Origin: Methanomassiliicoccus luminyensis B10
GTDB taxonomy: Archaea; Thermoplasmatota; Thermoplasmata; Methanomassiliicoccales; Methanomassiliicoccaceae
Length of the DNA stretch: 34,612 nucleotides
NCBI RefSeq assembly: GCF_000308215.1
Contig: NZ_CAJE01000001.1
Span: 1-34,612, forward strand
Direction: 5' to 3'
The notes under the pieces are model-generated. The model was not told the origin of the DNA and did not search any database. It saw only the letters and a list, made by a program, of their open reading frames with translations. This document shows, piece after piece, positions 29,430 through 34,612 of the stretch. A program made the position numbers and the translations under genes. Position 1 is the first letter of the stretch, and every line of letters begins with the position of its first letter.

Positions 29430-29502
29430 GGGCTCATGGTCTAGCGGCTATGACGTCTCCTTCACACGGAGAAGGTCGCCGGTTCGAATCCGGCTGAGCC
29501 CA
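29430..29502 (+). tRNA. tRNA-Val (anticodon CAC)
   Basis: A complete cloverleaf: acceptor GGGCTCA pairs perfectly with TGAGCCC, discriminator A. The D arm pairs GTC with GAC, the anticodon stem TCTCC pairs with GGAGA around the loop TTCACAC (anticodon CAC, reads GUG), and the T arm GCCGG pairs with CCGGC around TTCGAAT. No intron and no encoded CCA. A TACATATA box (about 29397-29404) lies about 30 nt upstream. A tyrosine recombinase gene begins 39 bp after it, pointing back to the tRNA, so the 3' part is a likely attachment site. Confidence 0.95.
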
Positions 29503-29541
29503 CTCACACTCTTATCCAGACAATTATCATCGAAATTCAAT

Positions 29542-30534
29542 TCAAACGGTTTTTCCGTTCATAGCCAGTTCGTCAAGGAACATACGGTTGTACGCTTCAT
29601 TGACGTTGGCGAACGCAGGGTCGGCTCGGGCACGGCAATAGTACCGTTCCGTCGTCTTTGTCGAAGCGTGCCTCATCGATTGCGATACCTGTTCTATCGG
29701 GACTCCCTCGTCCAGGGCGAGCTGTCCGCCGGTCGGCCGGAAGTCCTTCCACTTGAAAGTGATCCCGGCTTCCTGCATTACTTGCTTCTTCAATCGGCCG
29801 AACGCCTGCTGAGTGTAGTTGTTGACACCTTTGCAGGAGACGGCCGGGATCAAGGGCTCGGCGCTCTTGATGCCCTTGGACTGAAGCATCTCGTTCCTGG
29901 CCTTGATGAAATCTAGGACAAATGGCCTCAGGACGTCGGGGATCGGCAGGCGCTTTACTTCACCGTATATTCCCTTGCCTTTCGGATTGGCCACCAGGAA
30001 GGTCCACTTCCTCGTATCCAAGTCTCGTAGCGAGGATAGTTGCAGCTCTCCCGGCCTTAACTGTAGGAAGGTGAGCATGGCGGTGGCGAAGCGACAGGCT
30101 TCGCCTTTCCAGCCACCAACTTGCCTGCAAGCCTGGAGGACCGCTATCAGGTCCTCGCGGTACAGGGAATAAGGTTCTTGGTTATCGCTGCCTATCCGTA
30201 TCCGTCCGTCCTTGAGCATGTCCTCGACCAAACGATTCTTGCATTCCAAGCACACGTCCTTCAACAGTTGCATCTGCTTCCTGAGCGTCGAACGCTTTGG
30301 AGGTTTCCCCCTTACATCGCGGTTCTTCAGCGCCAGGAAGATCTCTATGATGTCGTCCTCCGTGAACCTGGAGGGGTTCGAGGTGCTTATCTTGCCCGAG
30401 CTGTAGAGCTTGTGAATGATCGAAGCCATGAAGTGCAGTTTGCGCTCACGTTCATCGATCGTCCCTTCGCCCAAACGAGCCCGGGCACGTTTCAGGTATC
30501 GTCGATAAGCGCACACGAAGGGGTATCGACCCAT
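29542..30534 (-). CDS. Tyrosine recombinase (integrase)
   Basis: 330 residues. An N-terminal SAM-like core-binding region (about 1-110) precedes the catalytic domain: R160 in LRPGEL, a lysine in the NPKGKG beta hairpin (185-189), R266 in KDFRPTGGQ, H289 in MRHAST, and the nucleophile Y298 or Y299 in TTERYY. The box II histidine usual before R266 is replaced by lysine (K263), seen in some archaeal recombinases. ATG at 30534 follows AGAGGT; the frame is open upstream to 30741 but that stretch looks unlike the family. The gene ends 39 bp after the tRNA-Val gene, as in elements integrated into tRNA genes. It is AT-richer than the core genes to the left. Confidence 0.88.
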   Translation of the reverse strand: MGRYPFVCAYRRYLKRARARLGEGTIDERERKLHFMASIIHKLYSSGKISTSNPSRFTEDDIIEIFLALKNRDVRGKPPKRSTLRKQMQLLKDVCLECKNRLVEDMLKDGRIRIGSDNQEPYSLYREDLIAVLQACRQVGGWKGEACRFATAMLTFLQLRPGELQLSSLRDLDTRKWTFLVANPKGKGIYGEVKRLPIPDVLRPFVLDFIKARNEMLQSKGIKSAEPLIPAVSCKGVNNYTQQAFGRLKKQVMQEAGITFKWKDFRPTGGQLALDEGVPIEQVSQSMRHASTKTTERYYCRARADPAFANVNEAYNRMFLDELAMNGKTV

Positions 30535-31280: not shown

Positions 31281-33167
31281 ATGGACCCTTATTCTAGGGA
31301 GACGGTTCATCAAAAGATTAATGAGATTATCAATAGGCCAGTTGAGTACATCTACATGTGGGAAGCCATCTCAGAGCTAGCTGATTTGCGTAAAACCGCT
31401 CAAGATAATTCAGATACTGAAGCTGTTCAAGAACTTGATTGGGAATATGATCTTCTTCTATATCCTGTATTTGGCAGCAAGGTCCAATATGAAGGAAAAG
31501 AAGTCAGTCCTATAGCCAATAAATGGGAATACTATCTGGAACGGACCGATAAATTTACCAATCCGTTTTCGAACCTGCCATTCTGTCAATGGAGGAAGGA
31601 GGCAGTAGATTACTACAGAAGGAGATTCATTGAGACAACCAACAATTTCGCTAAAGCCAGATACTCCTTTGCTTTAATGACGCTTAGTTCAGGAAAAGAT
31701 AAATTCATATTCGCAAAGGAATCATACGAATGCTGGCTTAAAACTGCCGAAGAATACGTATCGAATGACGGTGACAATGGATCGTACGAGATTGTACCAT
31801 TAGCCTATGGGCTTGCACTAAGAATGTCACTAGAATTTGGTCAGATGCAATGGGCAATGACCGCATTTTCTTCCTTATCGGAGTCCATCACTAAAACGAT
31901 TGATTATGAGTGGAGGGGCTGGACTCTCGATATTCTTAGACTTTTCGTAAAGCATGTGGGCACTCTAGAAGGACCGAGGGAGAACAAAGAACGAATAGGC
32001 ACCATGAAATCCAGGCTCATATCTCAATTAAGAGACCTGATTGAGAAAAGCCCAGCAGATGGTGATTACCAACTTGTAAGATGTTACATCGAAGTGTTGG
32101 TTGGGTTAGTGGATGAAGACGAGGCTTATATTCTAATGAAGAGAGCTGCTGAAACGCATATCACACAGGGAAATGGAGCACAAGAGGGGCTAGCACGTTA
32201 TACATTTTATGGATGGGGTTTGAAGGCATACAAGGAGATTCAGGATCGATTTCCTAGAGACAGGGATGATACACAGGCAAGAATAGATTTCATAACCAAA
32301 ATAATGAAGGAACAGATTGAAAAAATAGAGTGGGAGGACATTTCTGTTAGTTTTACCGTAGATGATCCAGTCAAGAAATATATCGCCGAATTAAAAGGAC
32401 TTGAGCATGGTGTTCTTGACAAAATTCTTGATGATACATCTGGTCTAATGGACATAGAAAAGGCCAGGGCCCTGACCCTTAAACAGAAGGAAACGGCACC
32501 ACTTGCATTCATTTTCCCCGTTTCAGTACAGAATGAAGAAAGTACGGTTAGAGAGCATCGCTCGGAGGACTCTCTTCTCGATTATAATGCTAGGAGAAAT
32601 ATCGTAATGTCCATTAAATTCTTTGAAATTCTATTTGTCAATGTTATGCGTGAAACGCAAGATAAGATTGTTGAGGATGGCGACATCGATAGGCTTCTTT
32701 CAGAGTCTCGCATTTCGGACATTAAACCTACTTTGGAGATTGGCTTCAAATCCATGCTGAAGACCCCGCCTGATCACCTCGTCGCTGCTCACATGCTCAC
32801 GCCATATCTTGAGGAAATCATTCGCAGAATCGTAATTGCAAATGGGATGGAAGATCGAGTGGTGGAGTGGGAGCGACAGATGGGTAGCGAGGAAAAAACC
32901 ATCTCATTTAGGAAGATAGATTTGGGCGGGCTTCTAAGGAACAATGAAGTCCGTACATTGCTGGGAACAGAGTTTACAGATTCCTTAAAGACCTTCCTTG
33001 TGGAGCAGGACCAAATCAATTATCGGAATCTACTCCTCCATGGGTTAATTCCTGCCAATAAAATAGGCGTTTTTGATACATATTTTCTTGTCTATTCACT
33101 GCTTAGACTAATCAGAATTCTTAGCCAGTCGCCTTCTCCTGCTAGACTGGAATTAAAAAGTAATTAG
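31281..33167 (+). CDS. DUF4209-like protein with HEPN-type RNxxxH motif
   Basis: 628 residues, mostly alpha helical, AT-rich and unlike the neighbouring core genes in codon use. Near the C-terminus the motif RNLLLHG (R582 to H587) matches the RNxxxHG signature of the DUF4209 domain and also the Rx4H catalytic signature of HEPN ribonucleases. The preceding helices (LAAHMLTPYLEEIIRRIV about residue 510) and the final helix IGVFDTYFLVYSLLRLIRIL fit a four-helix HEPN-like bundle. The N-terminal 450 residues are helical, perhaps a repeat scaffold, with no recognised catalytic motif. ATG at 31281 follows AGGATGGT. It stands alone, next to an integrase, so a defence or abortive-infection ribonuclease is plausible, but this is inference. 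Confidence 0.65.
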   Translation: MDPYSRETVHQKINEIINRPVEYIYMWEAISELADLRKTAQDNSDTEAVQELDWEYDLLLYPVFGSKVQYEGKEVSPIANKWEYYLERTDKFTNPFSNLPFCQWRKEAVDYYRRRFIETTNNFAKARYSFALMTLSSGKDKFIFAKESYECWLKTAEEYVSNDGDNGSYEIVPLAYGLALRMSLEFGQMQWAMTAFSSLSESITKTIDYEWRGWTLDILRLFVKHVGTLEGPRENKERIGTMKSRLISQLRDLIEKSPADGDYQLVRCYIEVLVGLVDEDEAYILMKRAAETHITQGNGAQEGLARYTFYGWGLKAYKEIQDRFPRDRDDTQARIDFITKIMKEQIEKIEWEDISVSFTVDDPVKKYIAELKGLEHGVLDKILDDTSGLMDIEKARALTLKQKETAPLAFIFPVSVQNEESTVREHRSEDSLLDYNARRNIVMSIKFFEILFVNVMRETQDKIVEDGDIDRLLSESRISDIKPTLEIGFKSMLKTPPDHLVAAHMLTPYLEEIIRRIVIANGMEDRVVEWERQMGSEEKTISFRKIDLGGLLRNNEVRTLLGTEFTDSLKTFLVEQDQINYRNLLLHGLIPANKIGVFDTYFLVYSLLRLIRILSQSPSPARLELKSN

Positions 33168-33241
33168 ATTACCTTTCAAGATTGGACAGAGCTATAAGTT
33201 ATCATCGGAGCATGCAGGTTAGAAAAATTTGGTGATTGAAT

Positions 33242-33820
33242 GTGTATTGCTCGAACTGCGGCACCTTGAATCGAGACGAGGCTAGCTATTGCGTGAATTG
33301 CGGGACAGCTTTAGGCGTGGCCAAACGCCAAGCCGAGAGAGAACAACTGTTACAGACGATTGCCGACGGCGGTATCGATTTGCTCCCTACTATCGAAGAC
33401 GTACCACTAGTGCTCAAAGGAAAAGACAGGTGCATCATGGCCCTGGATAACGTCCAGTTGTACGAGAGCAGGATGGTGCGGGAGTATGTAGGCGGGTCGA
33501 GAGGCGTCAGTGTCAGGATAATGAAGGGAGTGAACTACAGGGTCGGCGGTTTCTCCGGCCACTCGGAATCGCACCCAGAACTGCGGCAGATAGATGTTGG
33601 AAAGCTCTACATAACGACCAAACGGTTCGCTTATTCTGGATCAATTTCAAACACCCGCATTGATATTCCAATATCCAATATCGAGTCCCTGACCGTATAC
33701 TCAGACGCCATAGAAATCGGACGAAAAGGAAAACAGAGAAAGGAGTTTTATACAGGTATCGACGGACCCTATGCCCAAGCGGTTTTAGCCGGGGCGATTA
33801 ACTCATTTTCTAAATCATAG
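33242..33820 (+). CDS. Zinc-ribbon protein with PH-like C-terminal domain
   Basis: 192 residues. The N-terminal zinc ribbon uses CSNCGT and CVNCGTALG, the common CxxCG pair. A short helical stretch follows, then a beta-rich region (LVLKGKDRCIMALDNVQLYESR, KLYITTKRFAYSGSIS, RIDIPISNIESLTVYSDAIEIG) with a final helix, resembling the PH/GRAM-like fold of proteins with an initial zinc ribbon. I prefer GTG at 33242, giving MYCSNCGTLN, with GGTGAT five bases upstream; a TTG at 33236 is in frame. Function unknown. It is part of the integrase-side gene group. Confidence 0.65.
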   Translation: MYCSNCGTLNRDEASYCVNCGTALGVAKRQAEREQLLQTIADGGIDLLPTIEDVPLVLKGKDRCIMALDNVQLYESRMVREYVGGSRGVSVRIMKGVNYRVGGFSGHSESHPELRQIDVGKLYITTKRFAYSGSISNTRIDIPISNIESLTVYSDAIEIGRKGKQRKEFYTGIDGPYAQAVLAGAINSFSKS

Positions 33821-34593: not shown

Positions 34594-34612
34594 GGCATCA
34601 TCTGGCCTCTAA

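Follow-up and report, generated by a model that had tools for sequence, protein, structure and literature searches.

The AT-rich gene for a 628-residue protein beside a tRNA-Val gene of the archaeon Methanomassiliicoccus luminyensis B10 raises the question of what a predicted ribonuclease of the HEPN superfamily does on an archaeal mobile island, and whether it serves the cell or the island. To our knowledge, antiviral defence in archaea beyond CRISPR and restriction is poorly known. Here, we report that a known candidate defence family gains a new archaeal member in this protein. We consider it probable that the gene encodes an antiviral effector that works on its own, with a solenoid sensor joined to an RNase, and that belongs to the DUF4209 (C6orf70/ERMARD-type) HEPN family, catalogued as PDC-S39. 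The kinds of known defence system are left unchanged by this finding. Its contribution is a one-gene HEPN candidate whose mobile island is definable and whose host is probably a methanogen cultured from the human gut, together with a link between archaeal restriction loci and the DUF4209 family, to which the human C6orf70/ERMARD gene also belongs. Should the gene prove active, it would make a simple one-gene system to test. The window, by which we mean the whole stretch of 34,612 nucleotides analysed, is an entire contig, and its features are collected in Table 1.

Table 1. Features of the tRNA-Val island and of the DUF4209 gene (window coordinates)
Feature	Position	Strand	Basis or remark
tRNA-Val(CAC), attachment-site gene	29430..29503	+	ARAGORN
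Left attachment core CCGGCTGAGCCCACTCA	29490..29506	+	repeated at C15, C3:1661, C17:3467 and C17:5288
Tyrosine recombinase	29542..30534 (probable true start 30534; longest ORF to 30741)	-	Phage_integrase match and paralogue
DUF4209 / PDC-S39 family protein gene	31281..33167	+	intact ORF, ATG start, 628 codons
N-terminal alpha-solenoid, TPR-like, proposed sensor, residues about 105-347	31593..32321	+	AlphaFold helix pairs
C-terminal HEPN (DUF4209) domain, residues about 482-616	32724..33128	+	Pfam match 537-595, widened by conservation in relatives
E511-x3-R515, HEPN Ex3[KR] motif	32811..32825	+	invariant in nine aligned homologues
RNLLLHG (residues 582-588), predicted catalytic motif R582, N583, H587, G588	33024..33044	+	homologue conservation
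Zinc-ribbon protein, 194 aa, island cargo	33236..33820	+	Pfam Zn_Ribbon_1, 32.2 bits

Family assignment and predicted catalytic motifs

The first-pass annotation, made from the sequence alone, had described an AT-rich gene of 628 residues with RNLLLHG at its C-terminus, and the reading frame, composition and motif position all check out. The GC content of the gene is 0.416 (0.41 at third positions) against 0.635 for positions 1-29000 of the window. The integrase has a GC content of 0.556, with 0.71 at third positions, so that the DUF4209 gene looks the more foreign of the two. Membership of DUF4209 was likewise borne out: PF13910 matched residues 537-595 with 27.1 bits (E 4e-6), above its curated gathering cut-off of 22.3 bits, and the motif is therefore more than a chance occurrence. 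In a Pfam scan of the host genome (2,620,233 bases in 26 contigs) the same ORF scored 30.8 bits (E 5e-7) and was the sole DUF4209 gene. No NCBIfam family was found for the protein.

Two PADLOC-DB models of the candidate family PDC-S39, PDLC05011 and PDLC05012, also matched the protein, with E-values of 3.2e-11 and 4.4e-13. PDC-S39 is a single-gene phage defence candidate whose members have a similar length and the same C-terminal domain. In the window protein, the stretch that scores best is confined to the HEPN part (residues 498-613). All eight homologues scanned also match the models, the more distant ones over most of the profile and of the protein length; the archaeal clade has an N-terminal block of its own. 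PDC families are candidates by guilt-by-embedding, most of them without an experimental test (PMC12988326); a position in or beside a known defence system is the way they were discovered and need not hold for each member. S39 goes unmentioned in the main text of that study of 7747 archaeal genomes (PMC12988326) and appears in passing among PADLOC's calls for Pseudomonas PAO1 (PMC11878078). The literature searched contained no experimental test of phage or virus protection by any PDC-S39 protein.

The HEPN superfamily of ribonucleases is defined by an Rx4-6H site with a polar residue following the arginine, is often aided by an upstream Ex3[KR] motif and employs a metal-free RNase chemistry (PMC3710099). 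R582, N583 and H587 of the window protein conform to the former and E511-x3-R515 to the latter. Apart from the start, just these columns are invariant across the nine aligned homologues: E55, L408, F489, E511, R515, G522, N580, R582, H587 and G588. The Rx4H signature and the Ex3R signature of HEPN domains are thus both invariant; at position 583 eight of the nine have N and one has Q. An RN/RQ-x3-HG motif occurs in all 13 relatives.

The HEPN reading of the domain is thus right yet not new, since a 2013 study had already placed DUF4209, as the human C6orf70 family, in the HEPN RNase superfamily (PMC3710099), and the protein falls within the catalogued PDC-S39; novelty is not supported. In that account the family has TPR fusions, occurs in restriction-modification operons and is given as bacterial in origin with transfer to eukaryotes (PMC3710099). 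The window protein resembles it in the RNxxxHG and Ex3R motifs, the predicted helical-repeat N-terminus and the restriction context of its relatives, and differs in that both the protein and its clade are archaeal. The notion that the family is absent from archaea is contradicted by the further archaeal members found here, which widen the listed range. A single transmembrane region is a feature of the eukaryotic C6orf70/ERMARD proteins.

Predicted structure

In the full-length AlphaFold model, built on a four-row alignment (mean pLDDT 70.9), the helices of residues about 105-347 are arranged in pairs, with most blocks reaching pLDDT 70-93. Foldseek listed helical-repeat proteins for the N-terminal part, none of them at E below 0.001. 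Together these point to a probable helical repeat, in line with the helical N-terminus first proposed. The C-terminal domain is modelled as helical, but the RNLLLHG region (residues 577-593) has a pLDDT below 50. A separate model of residues 428-628 (pLDDT 67.9) had no significant fold match in the PDB; the HEPN structure 2hsb came at rank 48 with a non-significant E of 3.5 and a TM score of 0.43 by target length. A sequence search of the PDB gave nothing significant for the DUF4209 protein.

The integrase island

The CCGGCTGAGCCCACTCA core is the 3' end of the tRNA-Val(CAC) gene, and its repetition on contig C15, on C3 and twice on C17 indicates that the island is real. The recombinase scored 22.7 bits against Phage_integrase, below the cut-off of 27.1, and is 93% identical over 330 aa to an integrase adjoining tRNA-Val(GAC) on C15. 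Because this paralogue begins MGRYPFV, the window recombinase likely has the shorter extent given in Table 1. The archaeal integrase island of the first-pass annotation is in this way supported by tRNA gene, recombinase and repeated core alike. No further copy of the core was found to the right of 29490 in the window, which stops at 34612, still inside the island and 1.4 kb past the DUF4209 gene; where the island ends on the right, and what else it may carry, is consequently out of view. Leaving aside the integrase reading region, the interval from integrase to DUF4209 gene contains no ORF longer than 46 aa, and downstream follow the zinc-ribbon gene and two small ORFs on the minus strand. Since the partners known from relatives (below) also lack a homologue in the window, the earlier observation of no partner gene beside the DUF4209 gene holds. 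Scans for promoters and terminators gave counts near or modestly above chance and play no part in the argument.

The zinc-ribbon protein combines its N-terminal ribbon with a weak GRAM/Vps36 PH-like similarity, an unusual pairing on an archaeal mobile island.

Relatives and their neighbourhoods

A single-protein pattern search of genome contigs gave no close relatives; an alignment-based search gave three full-length ones at 33-36% identity, in metagenome-assembled genomes (MAGs) of Thermoplasmatota (locus L007, on the same contig as L006), Micrarchaeota (L008) and Pacearchaeota (L009). The window protein and these three form one clade with support 100/100, marked by the conserved N-terminal block, and the window protein has its longest branch (1.25 vs 0.37-0.50). 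More distant full-length relatives, at 15-20% identity, occur in the phyla of L009 and L008 (L032, L034, L035 and L036) and on bacterial plasmids. The survey covered archaeal genomes and bacterial plasmids, and a closer relative may exist on a bacterial chromosome. Among 390 Thermoplasmatota genomes a relative was found in two by the full-length profile and in three by Pfam, and the family is present in 5 of 327 genomes of the phylum of L009 and in 3 of 245 of that of L008. No other searched genome of the host's taxonomic family has the gene; together with the rare and patchy occurrence, this is how an accessory gene that moves horizontally is distributed. Viral contigs searched with four queries and a phage collection searched by tblastn contained no relative, so at the sensitivity of these searches there is no sign of viruses as its carriers.

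The defence role that had been suggested is backed both by the PDC-S39 family and by the restriction and nuclease genes that neighbour the relatives. In L008 the DUF4209 gene lies between HsdM/HsdS and HsdR, and in L009 between HsdR and HsdS, in both cases within a type I restriction locus. It adjoins a C5 methylase and an NgoFVII-type enzyme in L032, and Schlafen-AlbA and SAP proteins in L034, while NOV_C and a D12 methylase are found near it in L036. The Pontibacter copy adjoins a YhcG nuclease and a NERD protein, and a DNA methylase and a helicase lie near that of Aeromonas. Restriction or nuclease neighbours were seen in 7 of the 13 loci viewed (L005, L008, L009, L032, L034, L036 and L037), a raw count uncorrected for background. 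Several copies on bacterial plasmids had no defence neighbours, and the Thermoplasmatota relative L007 had no restriction neighbours. Plasmid members lie beside recombinases or IS elements. Neither a restriction gene nor another defence gene lies beside the DUF4209 gene within the window.

Two of the relatives have a possible partner. In L006 (2778-3731, minus strand) and L008 (5085-5999, plus strand), a gene whose product has about 310 aa runs into the start of the DUF4209 gene. The two products have a short C-terminal stretch in common (BLASTP E 4e-6 in a single comparison), end in an Rx4H motif (RNNLIH, RTTFAH) and GQFLxWCxxNG, and match no Pfam or PADLOC family. They may represent a second HEPN family coupled to DUF4209. 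A 94-aa protein gene takes the overlapping position in L009. No remnant of either upstream partner was found in the window.

Proposed mechanism and alternatives

As a stand-alone antiviral effector, the protein would bind, through its N-terminal helical solenoid, a protein or nucleic acid that signals infection, and until that moment this TPR-like sensor would keep the HEPN RNase inactive. The C-terminal HEPN domain would then cut RNA without a metal, probably in dimeric form, by means of R582, N583 and H587, with E511 and R515 in a presumed supporting role, and RNA cleavage may lead to growth arrest or cell death before the virus spreads. The gene would have arrived by horizontal transfer on the tRNA-Val integrase island and would act without a neighbouring partner.

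The main rival is an orphaned restriction guard resembling PrrC, the ancestor of which was held inactive by a type I complex and freed when a virus disabled that complex, and from which the window copy has become separated, its partner being lost or lying beyond the contig end. PrrC and RloC anticodon nucleases also carry a C-terminal HEPN RNase, as predicted here, behind a large regulatory region, and PrrC is embedded in type I restriction loci as are some DUF4209 relatives, among them two of the three closest (L008 and L009); such a role has been proposed for restriction-linked HEPN families (PMC3710099). The predicted alpha-solenoid N-terminus of the window protein is nevertheless unlike the ABC ATPase of PrrC and RloC. 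A PrrC-type guard would be expected to share its locus with type I restriction genes; the window has none, the host genome has only marginal partial domain matches and no convincing type I system, and plasmid members as well as the Thermoplasmatota relative exist without restriction neighbours. We therefore regard the orphaned guard as unlikely, if worth keeping in mind. A related and bolder proposal, which we put forward as a distinctly speculative one, is that an archaeal branch with its own N-terminal sensor block guards type I restriction, that some of its members are translationally coupled with the uncatalogued HEPN-like protein of about 310 aa as a two-RNase guard, and that the window copy became independent on a mobile island.

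The location of the gene also suggests a selfish function, that of an addiction-type toxin serving the retention of the mobile element instead of the defence of the cell. Toxin-antitoxin pairs commonly include HEPN toxins (PMC3710099), an integrase island carries the gene, and the recombinases and IS elements beside the plasmid members fit the same picture; yet no antitoxin-like gene adjoins, the upstream interval is empty of any sizeable ORF and the partners of the relatives have no counterpart in the window, which makes a stabiliser of the island rather improbable. Membership of the same HEPN family as C6orf70/ERMARD (PMC3710099) would agree with a house-keeping or stress-response enzyme of RNA processing, as proposed for the eukaryotic protein, but a patchy, horizontally mobile distribution, a foreign composition and absence from the searched genomes of the host's family make this very improbable. 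The length of its branch and the lack of the restriction context seen in two relatives might hint at a catalytically dead or decaying gene, an explanation to which we give hardly any weight, as the frame of 628 codons is intact and all predicted catalytic residues are kept at 33-36% identity to the relatives.

Related islands and a HEPN-only ORF

A sister island on C15 (158146-170000, L020) is located at tRNA-Val(GAC), where the 93%-identical integrase is followed by Cas1, DUF968 (HNH-like) and a 956-aa protein. Its consideration as a new casposon was dropped, a family 2 casposon of M. luminyensis being already listed (PMC4046053), and the island fits that earlier description. Extra copies of the core at C3:1661 (L018), C17:3467 and C17:5288 (L019) lie beside AT-rich stretches and short integrase-end remnants. 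Probably they mark where islands of this family end on the right, or are relics of such islands, and one of them could be the right end not seen for the island in the window. In a genome of the same phylum as L009, a 143-aa ORF (L031:7687-8118) adjoining a Bro-N protein consists of the HEPN part alone, representing a truncated copy or else a free-standing domain.
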